Source: Utricularia gibba (Eukaryota; Streptophyta; Magnoliopsida; Lamiales; Lentibulariaceae). Taken from it: a stretch of DNA of 64,000 bases. This document shows positions 28,888-36,960 of this stretch, piece after piece. How positions within the stretch are numbered: the stretch's first letter is position 1; every line of letters begins with the position of its first letter. The notes beneath the pieces are model-generated. The model searched no databases and was not told where the DNA came from. It saw only the letters and a program-made list of their open reading frames with translations. Location: the NCBI GenBank assembly GCA_002189035.1, contig CM007990.1, positions 2,170,001 to 2,234,000 of the forward strand. Direction: 5' to 3'. The position numbers and the translations under genes were made by a program.

Positions 28888-29739
28888 TCACTTCCCATAG
28901 AAAAAACTGAGCATCGTCCGGTACACCGCCCTTCGGCTGTTATTTCTCATTGCTTCCCTCAACTTACCCTCCTCCGGCGCCGCTCCTTTCTCCCTCAGCA
29001 TCACCAACAACTTGTTGGCCTCATCCCCCATCTCAACCTTCAACAACGCCTCCATAATCGCCGCACAAGTCTCAACATTCGGCCTCAAACCGCGACCCGC
29101 CATCTCCACTACGTACTTGTTAGCTTCTTTCACCATCTTCACATCCCCACTCTCAGCCAATCCCCTTATCATAACCCGATAAGTATAAGCATTTGGTAGC
29201 ACCCCACTCGCCAGCATTCGAAGGTATACTTTGTGAGCCTCTTTCGGGTGCCCTGCATTCACGTACGCCTCAAGCACCGCTGTGTGCGCCACCACATCAG
29301 GCATTTGCCCTTTATCTTTGATTTGGGCGAATAGCTCCAGTGCTTCGTGGGTTAATCCGTCCTGAGACAGTCCGTCGAACATCTTGACGGCACTGTTCAT
29401 CAGGCCGTCCTCTCGAATTCTGGCGAACACTTGCTGGAGATTCTTCGGGTCCTCTCGTTCCTCCACAGCAGGCTTTTTGTCGAAGGGATTATAGGGCGGC
29501 GGAAGCTTCGATTTATCCATCTCCTTAGCTACCGTCGCAGTTTCCGAATCCGACTCTGAATCGGAAGGGAGTGCGAAGTTCACCAATTTAGGATTGGGCT
29601 TCTTAGATTCCGTAGGGGTGCAGAATGATCGCACAACCGAGGGAAATCTCTGAAAAAATGACCCAGTCGGGGTGGAGGAGTAGCGGCGGAAGAGGTAGAA
29701 GGCAGGGGCGAAGGCTTTCATAGGGGGGACAAATGTCAA
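28888..29739 (-). CDS. pentatricopeptide-repeat protein, At4g38150-like
   Basis: Intronless, 283 residues, intact. The N-terminus (M7 KAFAPAFYLFRRYSSTPTG) is Arg/Ser-rich without acidic residues, as expected of a mitochondrial targeting peptide. An acidic SDSESDSET linker and the PPYNPFDKKP block follow. After the helical DPKNLQQVFARIREDGLMN region come P-type PPR motifs starting around residues 125-135 (GLTHEALELFAQIKDKGQMP), 150 (VVAHTAVLEAYVNAG), 185 (AYTYRVMIRGLAESG) and 225 (VETCAAIMEALLKVE). Length and motif order match the short PPR protein At4g38150. PPR proteins bind single organelle RNAs and act in processing, editing or translation; the target of this one is unknown. M1 (29739) and M7 (29721) are both possible starts. 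There is no frame damage. Confidence 0.9.
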   Translation of the reverse strand: MTFVPPMKAFAPAFYLFRRYSSTPTGSFFQRFPSVVRSFCTPTESKKPNPKLVNFALPSDSESDSETATVAKEMDKSKLPPPYNPFDKKPAVEEREDPKNLQQVFARIREDGLMNSAVKMFDGLSQDGLTHEALELFAQIKDKGQMPDVVAHTAVLEAYVNAGHPKEAHKVYLRMLASGVLPNAYTYRVMIRGLAESGDVKMVKEANKYVVEMAGRGLRPNVETCAAIMEALLKVEMGDEANKLLVMLREKGAAPEEGKLREAMRNNSRRAVYRTMLSFFYGK

Positions 29740-30762
29740 GCAGCGTACGAGTAGCTGGAGATGGAGAAGGCAGAATAAAGACGAGATGAAACTGCAAAAG
29801 CCGAGAGAAGAGAATTGTGGAATTGGAGGCGAGGAGGAATGAGCAGGGAGAGCATATATGATTCTCAGCCTCAGGCACCGGCGCAGAACACAGAGTTGGG
29901 CTGGGCTGCAACTGCAATCATGGACCTGTTCTGTGTAGGGGTGGGTAATTATTAGGGTTAACGGAACCCAAACACAATAACATAGCCCAATGGATAACTG
30001 AATAACATATTAATTGATCATTGTAACTGAATTGAATTAAATCAGGCTAACCGAATTAACCAATTTTCAAAAAAAAAATTGTTTTACCAAGGGTGATTAT
30101 TGGTGTTAATTGAAATCGAAATTGAGCTGATAATTCAATAAATTTGTAAATTGATAATCAAAATTGAATTAAAAACAAAAATTAATAAAATTTGTTCAAT
30201 TATCTAAAAATGATTAATTTGATAAATAATTGAACTAACCGGTAACCAATTTATGCCAAATTTTACTAACCGAAATCAAAAAACGGTTTAGATTCTATGC
30301 GACTTCGGTTAATTGATTTTTTCAGATATTAACCAAAATTTGATCACCCCTAGGCCTAGGCCTAGGCCTTACTGCCATCCATGAAATTTAGAAGTTAGCA
30401 TGGTTAAGGCTCTACAATCTGCTGATTTAAAGCTCCTTGCTTCAACCGCAGGTGTAGTACTCACCATTTTAATTGCTCTTCCATGAAATGGATCTCAAAT
30501 ATGTATAGAGAGCAGAGCAGAGCAGATTCAATAGTGGGCCAGGTTGACAACAACACCCAACCAAGCAACGCGCACCATGCCCTTGTTGTAAACACACAAG
30601 TCCCTTGTGAGACTTGCTTCTATAGCTTGGAAGGAAGATTGAATCTCCTTCCCTATAGCGCCACGAGTATGGACAAGGAAATTTGACTAACTCCTTATTA
30701 TGATGCATTCGGTGGGGGTTCAGGATAAATCCCCACCCGAGACCGAGATGATCATACAATAG
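29740..30762. other. PPR 5' flank and spacer to the Harbinger element
   Basis: 29740-29940 is the likely 5' UTR/promoter of the PPR gene. 29938-30355 is AT-rich and begins AGGGGTGGGTAATTATT and ends near AATTTGATCACCCCT. That gives weak terminal inverted repeats resembling short hAT-type MITEs, but no convincing 8-bp target duplication is visible. (CCTAGG)n-like sequence follows at 30351-30368. No gene is seen. Confidence 0.35.
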
Positions 30763-30960
30763 GGGCGCGTTTGGTTGTTGGGTTTAGGTGGGTTGTGACA
30801 TGGGTTTAGTTATAAACCCACGTTTGGTTCGTGGGTTTCAGGTGGGTAAAAATAAACCCACCTGTTGACCATAAACCAGACGGGAACCCGTGAAGCTGGG
30901 TTTAGCTAAACCCAGGGGAGGGGGAGGGGGGTCGGTTTAGCTAAACCCAGTTCGGCACTT
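30763..30960. repeat. left terminus: TIR plus subterminal TGGGTTTA repeats
   Basis: After the TIR, the motif TGGGTTTA or its complement TAAACCCA occurs about eight times within 200 bp, often as back-to-back palindromes such as GGGTTTAGCTAAACCCAG (twice, near 30899 and 30938). Clustered subterminal motifs in DNA transposons usually bind transposase or its accessory DNA-binding protein; here that role is inferred. Confidence 0.75.
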
Positions 30961-31235
30961 CCACTTTTGCCCTTGCGTGAACTGCATTTGAACGCAGGTC
31001 TACAACCCAGCATTCGTTCATGCTTTGCCAGTGGCGTCGCCTGTTTGAGCGCAAGAGGGTGGGTCTTTCGGTAAGTATGCTTTCTGTTCTTGGTGGATTG
31101 GTCCACGGTAGCATTGTGAGGGGCCAACCACGGCAGCACCGCGCTTGTGGATTTTTATCTGTGAATTTCCAATTTCAGAATCTGTGGTGCTGTGGTGGAT
31201 TTATTTTGCTCGATTTTGGTGACTATTGAGGGGAC

Positions 31236-32581
31236 ATGGATTTTTTCACGGAGGGTCATGTCATCTTGAGTGCGGCAGCGGCAGTTTTGACTAAATACTT
31301 GGTGCAGATGAATGTGTTAGTATACTTACATTCAAGGAAATAGCGTAGGGGATATAGGCTGAGACGCAAGTATTAACTTACAGACAAGATTTCTAGACAA
31401 GTTGAGTTTATTAGTAGGTTGGTGAGTGATGTGAACAGCGCATCCATTGAGAATTTGAGAATCAGCCGAGATGCATTGGGTGTTTTATGTAGTCTATTAG
31501 AAAATCGTTCTAACTTAAAGGCTGGAAAATATGTAACGGTTCCGGAGATGGTTTGCATGTTTTTAGGAATATTAGGTCATCATAAAAAAATGCAGGTGCA
31601 GAAGCATACCTACGGGAGGAGCACCGAGACTGTGTCTCGGTGCTTCCAAAAGGTGTTGCATGTGGTGCTTATCCTCCATGAGGTGTTGTTAGAGACCCTC
31701 GGTAGTCGCTGCAGAACGTGCATCCGAAAGAAAGTTTAAACACTTCCAGGTTGACACATCTTTCATGCTTCTTTTTACGAATGTGTATCCTAAAATTGAT
31801 TATGCATTTGCAGGGTTGTGTTGGAGCCATAGATGTCACATATATCGGTATACGAGTTAACAAATGTGATGCTGCAAGGTATAGAAATCGAAAGGGGGTG
31901 ATATCCACCAACGTGCTGGGTGTATGTGATGAACACATGAAATTTATATATGTGCTTGCTGGGTGGGAGGGGTCTGCTGCAAATAGTCGGGCTCTCAATG
32001 ATGCACTATCACGATCCGACGGCTTCCGTGTACGCCCAAGTATTTCACTTGTTTAGCCCTTGCACATGTGATTCCAATGATTTTATGCACCTGGTATACG
32101 CGATGACACATGAACATATTACCTATGTGACAATGGATACGTCAATAGGGAGGGCTTTTTGGCACCATACCGTGGAGTCCGTTACCACTTGAAGGAGTGA
32201 GGCCAGGGAAATGAAGCACCCCAGAATGCGAAGGAGTTATTCAACATGCGGCATGCATCAGCCAGAAATGTGATCGAACGAGCTTGGGGCTTGATGAAGA
32301 TGCGGTGGGGTATACTACGGACGACTAGCTACTATTCCGTAGACACACAGAACCGCATTGTATTGGCATGTGCTTTACTTCATAACCTCATTCGAAAGGA
32401 GATGGTGGTCGATCCCTTGGAGGATCAGGCCCCATTGGACTTCCAGGATGAAGCTGGGGACACGAGTGATCCAAAAGATGTCACGACATCTGCCGGAGGG
32501 AATCAGGCATGGAATAGGTGGCGTGACCAGCAAGCCGAGGGGATGTACATCGAGTGGCTGGCATCCCGCAGGCGCCGCTAG
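31236..32581 (+). pseudogene. HARBI1-like (DDE_Tnp_4) transposase, inactivated
   Basis: Three exons are apparent. 31236 to about 31749 carries the N-terminal LRISRDALGVLCSLLENR and VTVPEMVCMFLGILGHHKK block, with a stop and a frame change. 31814-32039 carries GCVGAIDVTYIGIRV and FIYVLAGWEGSAANSRAL. About 32117-32581 carries YYLCDNGYVNREGFLAPYRG and, near the end, RNVIERAWGLMKMRWGIL with LLHNLIRKEM. In active PIF/Harbinger transposases the triad is D (in AIDGT), D (in A-x-D-S-R) and E (in VIER). Here the first Asp and the Glu remain, the second is Asn, and the Gly after the first Asp is Val. A TGA at about 32188 replaces a conserved Trp codon just before GQGNEAPQN. The acceptor of the last exon is not clear. 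Non-functional. Confidence 0.85.
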
Positions 32582-32730
32582 TGTAGCATTGTTTTAGACA
32601 TTGTCAACCTAGTGGTTTTCCTTAATTCCCGTACCGAACCTATCGTGTCGTTTGTACTCCAACTTGAACTTGAAATTGCAAAGTATTTGGTTGTTGATGT
32701 ACAAATTATTGGGATTGTACAAAAAAATAT

Positions 32731-32764
32731 CGTGTGTTACCATGTGGTAACATGGTAACACACG
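32731..32764. repeat. perfect 14-bp inverted repeat, 6-nt loop
   Basis: CGTGTGTTACCATG (32731-32744) pairs perfectly with CATGGTAACACACG (32751-32764). It lies 150 bp downstream of the transposase stop, so it could act in 3'-end formation or be a remnant of another insertion. Confidence 0.85.
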
Positions 32765-32780
32765 GTGGATCATTGGAGCC

Positions 32781-33270
32781 AACACCGCGATCTTCAGTTG
32801 AGGTGCTACAAATGCTTGTAGCACACCACCGTTGTGGGCAGCACCACGTGTTTCACCGTATCCGGTGCTCATAAAAATTAAAGATTAGATGAGTGTGAAT
32901 CTGATGCATAGTAGTGAGGGTATTTGGTAGTACAACAAATCGTCATTTGACCGAACACCGCGAACCGTAATATGTAGTGCTTTTGTACGCTTGGGCTATA
33001 CCGCGTTCAGTGCTGCACCGGATGTTTCCTCATATCCGGTGCTGTCAAAATTTAGAAGTAGATGTGTATGCAGCTGGTACATGTTAGCGTGGGTGATTGG
33101 TAGTACAATAATACTCCATTTGACGAAACACCGCGATCCGTAATATGCGGTGTTTCTAAATGCGTGAGGTACGCTACGCATTCCACAGCACCGAGAAAAC
33201 ATAATCCGGTGTTCTGAGTTCCAAAAACAAAATACCATAAAATATTGCAGTTATCTAGCATTAAATGCAA
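32781..33270. repeat. three-unit tandem repeat, exact 173-bp period, hairpin-rich
   Basis: Units begin AACACCGCGATC at 32781, AACACCGCGAACCG at 32954 and AACACCGCGATCCG at 33127. Both spacings are exactly 173 bp although the units differ at many positions. Shared landmarks are a central CACCG...ATCCGGTG(C/T)T hairpin-forming pair about 65-90 bp into each unit and TTGGTAGTACAA in units 1 and 2. The third unit is truncated or diverged after about 120 bp. It lies between the transposase gene and the captured coding block. Confidence 0.75.
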
Positions 33271-33579
33271 AAGACGGTTGACAACTGCTCAGTGCTATTA
33301 ATACCCCCTGCGCACAATAAAGACGTCTGACATTGTGCACTTTCCAAAACAACTTCATTAATTCTACCCATCCAACTCCACCCTTTCGGCAAACGTACAG
33401 CAGCACCGCGAAAACAATCTCCTCGGCAACCTCTCTAGAACAGCGCCACGACGGTAGGCACCTTTGCCTTTTGTGTTTCAAATTCTTCGTTGCCATTGTC
33501 GAGTAACACGTCTATTGTTTTCCAGTTGTTGACGTGCGAGAAACTACGTGTCCGCTTCTCAATTTCATACAGTTACACG

Positions 33580-34233
33580 ATGTGGGATAAACAGCCGGGC
33601 GAAACGTCCGACGGCGAACCGCCATCCAGAGTTGGCGGTTCGGGATTCACCGTCAGCACCGAGCACTTTCGGTGTGGATTGCGACTCCCCCCGCCCCCTT
33701 TCTTGGTGCAAATACTTGCTGCACTCCAGATCCCGCTCTCCCACCTCACACCGCGTTCTGTGACACACATTCTCGCATTTCTGCAGATCTGTGAAGAGGA
33801 GGAAATACCCCCGGAAATGCGTGTCTTCTTTGCGGTTTCTGTTTGTGTCCCACGCAAGGGGAGTCCGCACTACTCGCTTCATGGAAAACTTGGTGTGGTA
33901 CTGGTTACAGACGTGAGAAGCGCATATGATGATTGGTGGACTAGTTTTGTATGGGTATGCCCACCCACCGCTGTAGAATGGCCAACAACGTTGACAATGC
34001 CAGAGAATGTGGGACACCCATCAGGTAATCATAAACAATTATTTCGGATATTCACACGTCTTGTTGAACAGTACTCATGTTTTTTTGTTGTTTGCGTTAT
34101 AGGCATGGAGGTATTGCCAAAACGTGCGGCAAGGATGAATTTATTCTCTTGCAGAACAAAGTACTTGGAGGACGTCTTGCCCCTCTTCATCAATGCCCCT
34201 AGGACACAGCATCTGTGGTGCGGAACCCCTTGA
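33580..34233 (+). pseudogene. Transposase_28-like (plant gag-like) coding block inside the Harbinger element
   Basis: From the ATG at 33580 the frame reads FRCGLRLPPPPFLVQILAAL, then LSHLTPRSVTHILAFLQICE, IPPEMRVFFAVSV and, later, YDDWWTSFVWVCPP and EWPTTLTMP. This order (L-P-x-P-x-F-L-V, L-T-P-x-S, F-L-x-x-C, F-F, W-x-x-x-F-x-V) is that of the plant 'putative gypsy-type transposon' domain PF04195, found in gag-like proteins. An intron may run from 34024 (GTAATC) to about 34102 (TTATAG), with EVLPKRAARMNLFSC after it. The frame ends at 34233 without a clear C-terminus. How it entered a Harbinger-type element is unknown. It may have formed one chimeric transcript with the phosphatase-like exons just downstream. 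Confidence 0.6.
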
Positions 34234-34275
34234 CACTGTAGACAACGTAGGAGTACAAATGATGATCTTGAGGAG

Positions 34276-34974
34276 ATGACCCATGAAGAGGATGAAGATG
34301 TGCAGCCAGAAGTCGGGGGAAACACGGAGGGGCCAACACTGATTTCGACACACGACGACGGGTGCGGTGCTGCCACTGCAAAGTATATCCAAATGGACAA
34401 ACTGTATGCAGAGAATCTTGATCTCTGTGGTCGGCTTGCATGGTATGAAGCAAGGTGGCCATACGGTGGACCATCGAGTGATAACACGGCCCCACCACGG
34501 AAGTTGCTTATATTTGACATGAATGGCGTACTTGCGGACATTGTGTATCCTCGCGAAGTCAGATGGGGAGCGCCGAAGCCTGATGACGTCATTTACAGGC
34601 GAAACGGTAATGCAATGTCATTGATATGCATTTAATATTTGGTGCATGTATCAGTACTATTTCTTGTGCTTGTAGTGTATCTTCGACCAGGTGCACGTGA
34701 GTTGATACAGTTTTGCATGGAACATTTTGACGTCGCCATCTGGTCTTCAAGAGGGCGGTAAGACTGACCACCTAGCAGACAAGGGGGTCCGCATTCCTGC
34801 TGGCATTTTTTTTTTCTGACGACATGTGGCAGTGAACAATTGCATGATGTGATTCAGTGTTACTAGGGACTGTAGCAGCCAGCAAGCTCGTCTTCCAATG
34901 GGATGGATCCAGGTGTGTGGACACCGGCTATCCGGTGCCGTCTCTGGATTTGAAACCTTGTGTCTAGACGTGGT
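34276..34974 (+). pseudogene. captured exons of an FCP1/NLI-like HAD phosphatase
   Basis: Exon A (to 34606) ends with KLLIFDMNGVLADIVYP, the HAD motif I of plant FCP1-homology proteins. The nucleophile Asp is present and the second acidic position is Asn, as in other plant 'LDLNG' members. Exon B (34676-34757) reads VYLRPGARELIQFCMEHFDV then AIWSSRG, the motif II strand. Exon C (about 34866-34972) reads AASKLVFQWDGSRCVDTGYP, matching the family's F-x-W-D-x-x-x-C-x-D-T-G block, and hits a stop. Splice borders GT at 34607 and 34758, and AG at 34674-34675, are intact. Upstream of motif I is KYIQMDKLYAENLDL, which is not family sequence I recognise. The downstream part of the catalytic domain is missing, so the product cannot be a full phosphatase. 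The capture is inferred from its position within the TIRs. Confidence 0.65.
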
Positions 34975-35023
34975 GCTTCGTAATATGCAGCACCAATGCG
35001 GTGCTAGTCCACTTATCGCGATA

Positions 35024-35049
35024 GCACCGGATGTTTTAACATCCGGTGC
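35024..35049. repeat. perfect 12-bp inverted repeat, 2-nt loop
   Basis: GCACCGGATGTT pairs with AACATCCGGTGC. The same core GCACCGGAT/ATCCGGTGC forms a hairpin in unit 2 of the 173-bp array (near 33014-33041), tying this region to that array. Confidence 0.85.
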
Positions 35050-35454
35050 GTTCACTGGATATGCTTCTCTTGTGAGAGTCTTCCACCACGATTGGGCTGT
35101 GCATACCTGCAATCTATGCTGGAGGAAAGAAAACAGCAAGAAAAAAGCACCTACACCGAGCACTTACCACAAGTAAACCGTAAAATTCACTCAAAATTCA
35201 ACGGATTTCGAACGACAAACTCTGCGCAACGAAGGGAGTATACAAACTGGCTATAACCCATGGCTGTTCACTCTCAATTACTTGTGAAATTGAGAGATCT
35301 CGTCGATCGGCAGCACCGCGACAACCGAGTGTGAAAGTCAGTGAACGCATTGGGAAAACTTTGGTAATAAAGAGGGATATGTCGTATTGGTAAAGTCGGT
35401 GTGGAGGGCGGTAGACGAGTGTGAAAGGCTATATTGGTAAATTTCCAAAAAAAT

Positions 35455-35627
35455 TATGTATAAACCCAATTTTATACCCACCAACCAAACGTGAGTTCAT
35501 TTAAACCCAAATAATGTAAACCCATCAACCAAACACGATTCCTAAACCTAAACCCACAAAACCGGGTTTCCTAAACCCAAATAAACTAAACCTGGGTTTA
35601 GGTCAAACCCAGCAACCAAACGTGCCC
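35455..35627. repeat. right terminus: subterminal TAAACCCA repeats plus TIR
   Basis: About nine copies of TAAACCCA or its complement in 170 bp, mirroring the left end. The sequence ends in the TIR CAACCAAACGTGCCC at 35627 followed by TAG. Confidence 0.75.
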
Positions 35628-36960
35628 TAGGAATAGGTGGATGGAATCCAGGGAAGGAGAAGAGAAGACATCTCACACTCACTAGCCACCTCATTTGGTG
35701 GTGTCAAATATGCCCAAATGGACTTATCTTCCAAATTACATCTAACAACAAGGGGATGCTAGCTCATTTCACGAGGTGTGTGAGGCTCGGGAGGTTGGTG
35801 TGCGGTAAGTTTCCTTACAATGTTTACTTCGGTTTTGATTCAGGTTTTGACTTCAATTTTCCTTTCAAACCGAATCCCTTGGTATTGAACCTCGTGATGC
35901 GACCTACCTCACAGAAGGAGACAAAGGTGTCAGATCTTTTGCAACTCCAAATCCAACTTCGGATGCCAAGGAGATGCCGAAAAGCATCAGTAAGGGAAAG
36001 GAGAAACTATCGCTTTCTCCTAAAATCAACTTGCTCCCCGCTCTCAAGATGCTTCTGCATGGGTGCCCCCTTTTGCTGCTACCAAGGACCCTTAGGCCTC
36101 TTCGAGTCAAATTCATGCCGAGTTGCATGCGGCATTAGACAAGACGGTTTCCAAATCTCCTATGTTTCCGAAGGAATCGGTTTTGGGAGGCATTTGGTAG
36201 GTTGGTTTCCCCTCAAGTTTTCCTATTTTGAGGATCCATCAGGTCTTCACAATCGATTTATCTCTCAGATGGAAACTGGCTCAAGGACTTGAGTCTCTTA
36301 GCACGAGGGGTTTAGAGCTCAAAACTATAATAGCGGCAAAGGACTTAGAGATTGAACATTTGCAGGATGAGGAGAGTTCCCTAAAGGCCAGGATAGGTTG
36401 GTAAGCGGTCCTATCATGAAGCGAAGCTAGAGATTGTCATGAGTGAATGGGGAAGATGATTGATAATACCAACCTCGAGAAAGAGGGCTTTAAAGCTAGG
36501 TTCGAGGAAATCGACTTGGATCTCATTCATGCAAAAGAGTGCATCTCGGCACTGGAGTCCGAATTACACAATCAAGAGTTGGCTTGCCAAGAAATATTGG
36601 ACAACTTTGTTTGCTCTGGCTGCTTCTTGGAGCTTTCCGATCTTTACTCGGGGCGACTTAGTCGGTCTACTACTGTATTGGCAGCTGCGCCAGATCGCGA
36701 CTATATTCAGCATCTCGTTTATCGACCCTTGTTGAGATCAGGTGGCTTCCCTTGATAAGGATGAGAATATGCAGGAAGTCCGACTCGATCAAATTGAAGC
36801 TCTGGAACTCGGATTCACAGCCGACTTGCCATGCTTCGAGGCCATCATTCGAGAAAGGATGAAAGAGGAAGACACTGCAAAGTTGGACACCAAACTAAAG
36901 AGGCATGTTGGCTCGTCCACCAATCCCCTCTCTTGAACATTTATTTCTAAACTTCAAGTA
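35628..36960 (+). pseudogene. gag-like coiled-coil relic (uncertain)
   Basis: Between 36060 and 36935 several fragments in different plus-strand frames look like the C-terminal coiled coil of plant gag-like proteins: HAELHAALDKTVSKSPM, GLELKTIIAAKDLEIEHL, EIDLDLIHAKECISALE with ESELHNQELACQEI, and, after 36740, VRLDQIEALELGFTADLP. Stops separate them. The family (PF04195-type gag elements) is suggested by heptad-rich texture and the closing short ORF, not by a diagnostic motif. Confidence 0.35.

Follow-up and report, generated by a model that had tools for sequence, protein, structure and literature searches.

An FCP1-like gene of apparent host origin is a stable third gene of a PIF/Harbinger transposon lineage in Utricularia gibba and occurs in hAT elements of the same genome

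A PIF/Harbinger insertion in Utricularia gibba, at positions 30763–35627 of the 64,000-nucleotide stretch of DNA analysed here (the window; contig CM007990.1, positions 2,170,001 to 2,234,000, or C2:2170001-2234000 in the genome searched, which comprises 100 Mb in 516 contigs), encloses exons of an FCP1-like, phosphatase-type protein. Such exons raise the question of whether the element has picked up a piece of a host gene in passing or carries a gene that belongs to it. The initial annotation took the former position and described a Pack-type element, in which the cargo had formed a chimeric transcription unit and replaced the usual Myb-like open reading frame 1 (ORF1). Our analysis indicates that the cargo belongs as a stable third gene to a PIF/Harbinger family of autonomous type, and that the window holds a dead copy of this three-gene lineage with internal deletions.

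The boundaries of the element were assessed from the terminal inverted repeats (TIRs; GGGCRCGTTTGGTTG) and the 3-bp target-site duplication (TSD), which is TAG. The two TIRs (30763–30785 and 35605–35627) are 91% complementary over 23 nt and are common to the members of the family. The terminal 25-mer matched the genome 96 times at up to 3 mismatches, versus 0 for the reversed control; some of the matches are paired about 0.9–1.1 kb apart and resemble short non-autonomous derivatives. Each of eight other copies has its own matching TSD (TTA, TAA, TAT, TTA, TTA, TTA, TCA and ATA), which shows that this is a real transposition unit. With the window copy, 9 copies have a 3-bp TSD, and the TWA-like duplications identify a PIF/Harbinger insertion. 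The annotated ends, with TAG on both sides, were thus confirmed. The features of the window copy are listed below (L009, L010 and L014 are longer copies used for comparison).

30760–30762: left TSD, TAG
30763–30787, plus strand: 5' TIR, beginning GGGCGCGTTTGGTTG (TIR alignment, 25-mer genome matches)
31236–31739, plus strand: N-terminal part of the transposase gene (PIF/HARBI1-type), with a nonsense TAG at 31341–31343 (compared with the open reading frame of L009)
31706–32053, plus strand: catalytic part 1 of the transposase, DDE_Tnp_4, with GAID (Pfam, 6.2e-5)
32114–32578, plus strand: catalytic part 2 of the transposase, with LCDNGY and VIERAWG and a nonsense TGA at 32198–32200 (Pfam, 7.3e-11)
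33526–34024, plus strand: exon with PF04195 (Transposase_28/TRP28) (Pfam, 6.5e-12)
34025–34102, plus strand: intron, GT...AG (alignment of the same region with L009 and L014)
34103–34606, plus strand: exon with linker and first FCP1-like exon (LIFDMNGVLADIV), nonsense change CGA to TGA at 34231–34233
34676–34757, plus strand: FCP1-like exon (VYLRPGARELIQFCMEHFDVAIWSSRG) (intron phases common to host genes)
34833–34938, plus strand: FCP1-like exon, frameshift near 34855, cut by deletion 1
34930–34938: junction of deletion 1, 521 bp lost relative to L010, FCP1 C-terminal exons removed
35060–35074 (approximate): junction of deletion 2, 1281 bp lost relative to L010, most of the Myb ORF1 removed
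35063–35104, minus strand: remnant of the Myb/SANT-like ORF1, first 14 codons (MHSPIVVEDSHKRS)
35603–35627, minus strand: 3' TIR (TIR alignment, 25-mer genome matches)
35628–35630: right TSD, TAG

The proposed HARBI1-like transposase was recovered as two matches to DDE_Tnp_4 (PF13359; 31706–32053 and 32201–32578), with the DDE triad in the motifs given above, although the gene contains at least two nonsense codons. The PF04195-like block stood as well (match at 33574–34026), but its description as gag-like did not, PF04195/TRP28 having no known gag role. The FCP1-like part belongs by homology to the FCP1/NIF family of HAD proteins (PF03031, 3.3e-9, using the joined full exon set of longer copies). 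The splice-site consensuses are present as described (34025/34102, 34607/34675 and 34758/34832); a complete reading frame is not, and the supposed intact chimeric unit is interrupted by the TGA codon and a 1-bp loss near 34855 and has lost its FCP1 C-terminus through deletion 1. Nor is the Myb-like ORF1 absent, since its first 14 codons survive beside deletion 2. No functional protein is encoded by the window copy, which could at most be mobilised in trans.

The window element matched more than 30 places in the genome with 79–95% DNA identity and with the cargo inside, so that the FCP1 exons are not confined to a single locus; the fuller copies of this family span about 5.5–7.6 kb. Protein searches and clustering of the matches revealed at least 24 loci with the order transposase (plus strand), PF04195 (plus), FCP1 (plus) and Myb (minus). 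In these full relatives ORF1 thus follows the FCP1 exons and is read from the other strand, and its full-length version in L014 matches PF12776 (1.8e-6). At least 25 further loci have the transposase (plus) and the Myb gene (minus) without the cargo. Both counts are lower bounds because the searches score best candidates only. TIRs and a TSD were also identified for two more carriers (L022, 7929 bp, TAA; L025, 7500 bp, TTA) and for two cargo-less relatives (L027, 3482 bp, TAA; L029, 4960 bp, TTA). Since the relatives hold the transposase, the cargo and the Myb ORF1 together, ORF1 was not replaced by the cargo, which is a third, stable gene.

The history of the cargo was compared with that of the transposition genes. 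In the tree of the fused gene (PF04195+FCP1), the PIF carrier lineages A (the window family), B and C, which are about 40–70% identical in protein, each form a clade with 100% support. The same three lineages are starred in the transposase tree; stars also mark A and C in the Myb tree, where B has a support of 92/91 and the cargo carriers form one branch (93/95). A later nested insertion of the cargo was ruled out because its phylogeny follows the transposon lineage. Among the 24 carrier loci, identity falls to about 65% for the transposases and about 40% for FCP1. The pooled ratio of nonsynonymous to synonymous differences per site (pN/pS) within lineage A was 0.43±0.08 for the transposase, 0.43±0.04 for PF04195, 0.51±0.04 for FCP1 and 0.36±0.04 for Myb; these values are approximate, since frameshifted segments drop out of a count based on high-scoring segment pairs. 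The values for the cargo are near those of the transposition genes, from which it appears about equally constrained. Between lineages, pS was about 0.8 (saturated synonymous sites) and pN about 0.33. By these measures the PF04195-FCP1 gene is old and kept by purifying selection.

A parental gene was sought among host FCP1-like loci of the DVNGLLADIV type, which were found at C1:1523k, C4:3539k, C98:1242k and C505:1969k. They were recovered solely with a generic plant FCP1-like query, which served for locating only; what is concluded on host genes is drawn from the sequences L059 and L060 of the genome itself, with hosts C4 and C98 left out. In the two host genes read, three introns have the same position and phase as those between the transposon exons (phase 1 in the V of xV(Y/F)xRP, phase 2 after WSSRx and phase 0 after NP); the host gene contains two additional ones, one following LLFCW and the other following ALG. 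All FCP1 domains from transposons form one clade versus the two host genes (100/100). The FCP1-like part evidently descends from this intron-containing host gene family. The well-known FCP1, SCP and CPL genes were rejected as parents, the profile of the transposon FCP1 domains giving no match in L036–L041. No PF04195 was found at the four host loci among the matches listed, and the PF04195-FCP1 fusion therefore looks transposon-specific.

By sequence, the nearest solved structure to the FCP1-like part is UBLCP1 (3shq, 7.9e-7). The catalytic motif DxDx(T/V) is not present: host and transposon copies alike have DVNG, in which the second catalytic Asp (the acid/base) is Asn, and lineage B has YVNG. 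In this lineage (L023, L025 and L047) the nucleophile Asp is changed to Tyr (F-Y-V-N-G-V) in 3 of the 3 copies read, while the rest is conserved; its FCP1-like domain is a possible pseudo-phosphatase. Catalysis by the FCP1-like part looks impaired, and its role is probably binding more than strong catalysis, because the acid/base residue is replaced in hosts and transposons and the nucleophile is lost in one lineage. An AlphaFold2 model of the PF04195 domain was unusable (mean predicted local distance difference test score 36.7).

Several fused genes have neither a PIF transposase nor a Myb gene nearby. These were considered as TIR-free PF04195-FCP1 host genes, a possibility that was rejected: L030 was recognised as a hAT element (hAT_E), and L032, L033 and L035 as members of a second hAT family (hAT_D). 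L030 (C402:1730682-1736332) has TIRs TAGAGGTGGGCACGG / TAGAGCTGGGCACGG (TIR TAGAGSTGGGCACGG), the TSD ATTGAATC/ATCGAATC and a hAT-like transposase whose orientation is convergent to that of the fused gene. A second hAT_E copy (C451:4971186-4976072) has the TIR TAGAGCTGGGCACG at both ends and the TSD GTTACACC/GTTACATC. In the two copies, TIRs and 8-bp TSDs that are 7/8 identical thus surround the transposase and the fused gene, and this pair of genes occurs in the same order at 5 loci. The N-terminal open reading frame of hAT_E has no Pfam match, and the assignment to hAT rests on the TIR, the 8-bp TSD and the resemblance of the reading frame. The hAT_D transposase (PF05699, 1.9e-21; PF14372, 6.6e-10) is located upstream of the fused gene, on the same strand and in the same order, at at least 15 loci. 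In the trees, hAT_E and PIF_C are sisters (97/97 on PF04195+FCP1, 84/84 on FCP1 alone), and hAT_D stands elsewhere. The fused gene is therefore common to PIF/Harbinger and hAT elements of the same genome and spans two transposon superfamilies. One further PF04195-FCP1 gene, with a long branch in the tree, has no identified transposon carrier (L034, C98:2924000-2931000). At about 46 loci PF04195 occurs alone, without FCP1 or a PIF transposase in the vicinity among the matches listed; fragments or transposons of other types may account for them. An exon resembling acyl-CoA oxidase (by eye) is situated at L030:1650-1940; the hAT element lies about 0.7 kb away.

The presence of the fused gene in a second, unrelated transposon class suggests that it is probably of help to transposons and not a randomly acquired cargo, and a captured gene common to two unrelated superfamilies points to a common benefit. 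In the mechanism that we would propose, a host gene was captured as DNA and joined to the TRP28 gene of a transposon, presumably once, because all transposon copies form one clade, and the fused gene would then have passed between PIF/Harbinger and hAT at least once. The fused protein would work in trans, with TRP28 as the transposon-specific part, and its FCP1-like domain would dock on a host target, for instance the C-terminal domain of RNA polymerase II or a silencing factor; such docking could let the carriers be better expressed or escape silencing. That the fused gene provides a trans-acting accessory protein for its carriers is favoured by its likeness to the KIU and TET/JBP layouts discussed below, and we consider it plausible, if short of probable. 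Only tentatively do we suggest the joint proposal that TRP28-FCP1 is a mobile accessory module, which moved between PIF/Harbinger and hAT and, perhaps in the manner of a pseudo-phosphatase, acts in trans by raising carrier expression or countering silencing.

As regards anatomy and ancestry, it is quite probable that the window element descends, with deletions, from a PIF/Harbinger lineage of three genes, one of which is a host-derived, transposon-fused FCP1-like gene. Several observations weigh against this reading and its extension to hAT. Most copies contain stops, and an active autonomous element was not identified. In the transposase tree the carriers are not a single branch, although one clade was not rejected (p = 0.237 in the approximately unbiased test, p-AU). 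The termini of hAT_D were looked for and no TIRs were found; a first candidate pair was discarded as the copy proved truncated. The PIF carriers as one clade gave a p-AU of 0.045 on PF04195+FCP1 and of 0.208 on FCP1 alone, and the hAT carriers as one clade were not rejected (0.218 on PF04195+FCP1), so that the trees are compatible with more than one number and direction of the PIF-hAT transfers. The role in trans is drawn by analogy.

The competing explanations fare less well. A recent, passive capture by a non-autonomous element, in which the cargo replaced ORF1, would agree with the window copy by itself, which has host-like exons and no full ORF1. Pack-TYPE elements, however, are non-autonomous and carry captured fragments without transposition genes of their own, whereas the relatives hold transposase and ORF1, and the window copy, an internal deletion derivative, keeps a transposase pseudogene and the ORF1 remnant. 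With the cargo constrained like the transposase and present in three lineages of such low protein identity, beside ORF1 and transposase, a Pack-type origin is hardly credible. It is also unlikely that the fusion is a host gene family in the first place, which PIF and hAT elements would have acquired in several independent captures. The intermixing of PIF and hAT carriers in the fused-gene tree (hAT_E with PIF_C, and the p-AU for the PIF clade) and the carrier-less L034 would fit such a history, but the four host loci have no PF04195 among the matches listed, a TIR-free single-copy fusion gene was not found, and the two hosts fall outside the single clade of transposon FCP1 domains. The nonsense mutations and frameshifts in many copies and the impaired catalytic residues could, in turn, mark the gene as a passenger of carriers that succeed otherwise, its constraint being inherited from the parental gene. 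The pN observed between lineages at saturated pS and the persistence in at least five lineages of two superfamilies would not be expected of a passenger, which makes this explanation very unlikely.

Outside the element, the nearest host-like gene is a 373-aa open frame on the minus strand (28888–30009), which resembles pentatricopeptide-repeat genes by eye. Downstream (35639–36900) there are open coding-like frames of coiled-coil-like composition, possibly retrotransposon remains; the frame at 35639–36289 had no Pfam match.

The component parts of this system are of known kinds; an FCP1-like gene in PIF/Harbinger or hAT was not found described in the literature searched, which left subscription papers and Repbase outside its scope. 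PIF/Harbinger transposition requires two proteins, a transposase and a separate Myb/SANT-like ORF1 (PMC2836001). The family studied here resembles Pong, Ping and PIF in its 3-bp TWA-like TSD, its GG(G/C)C...TTTGGT TIRs, its DDE_Tnp_4 transposase and separate ORF1, its deletion derivatives and its closely spaced TIR pairs, and differs in the conserved PF04195-FCP1 gene between transposase and ORF1 and in the TAG duplication of the window copy. The Pack-PIF elements of maize and rice likewise have PIF termini around host-derived coding DNA, but those described in the accessible part of the source (PMC8903248) are short and non-autonomous and contain fragments of genes, whereas the gene reported here has been kept alongside the transposase and ORF1. 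Plant genes captured by transposons mostly persist as fragments and for a short time; here such a gene belongs, under selection, to the standard set of whole lineages. The plant DVNGLL FCP1-like (NIF/HAD) genes share with it the domain homology, DxNG, (I/L)DDSP and three same-phase introns, but have two more introns and no detected PF04195 part.

TRP28/PF04195 is known from antisense reading frames of Retand long terminal repeat retrotransposons, where its role is unknown; the same Pfam domain is thus found on transposons there, but those are class I elements, and no FCP1-like fusion is reported in the accessible part of that work (PMC11963269). The fused gene provides a testable context for this transposon domain without a known role. 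It also calls for caution with plant annotations, in which gene models of the FCP1/NIF and PF04195 types may represent genes of transposons. The closest parallels are found in two other systems. KIU genes of Vandal/Kaonashi Mutator-like elements are VANC fused to a captured Ulp1, and related elements become hypomethylated through VANC proteins (PMC13317346). There, as here, a host enzyme domain was captured, fused to a transposon accessory protein and kept as an extra gene over deep time; in our case the carriers are PIF/Harbinger and hAT, the domains are an FCP1-like HAD and TRP28 instead of VANC, and an anti-silencing activity is putative. In fungi, TET/JBP dioxygenase genes occur in many lineages of DNA transposons, hAT and Harbinger among them (PMC12730594). 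One accessory gene is again common to different DNA transposon superfamilies, whereas the present case concerns a plant-type genome and a HAD phosphatase-like fusion gene, which constitutes a plant parallel to both the VANC-Ulp1 and the fungal TET/JBP transposon genes.

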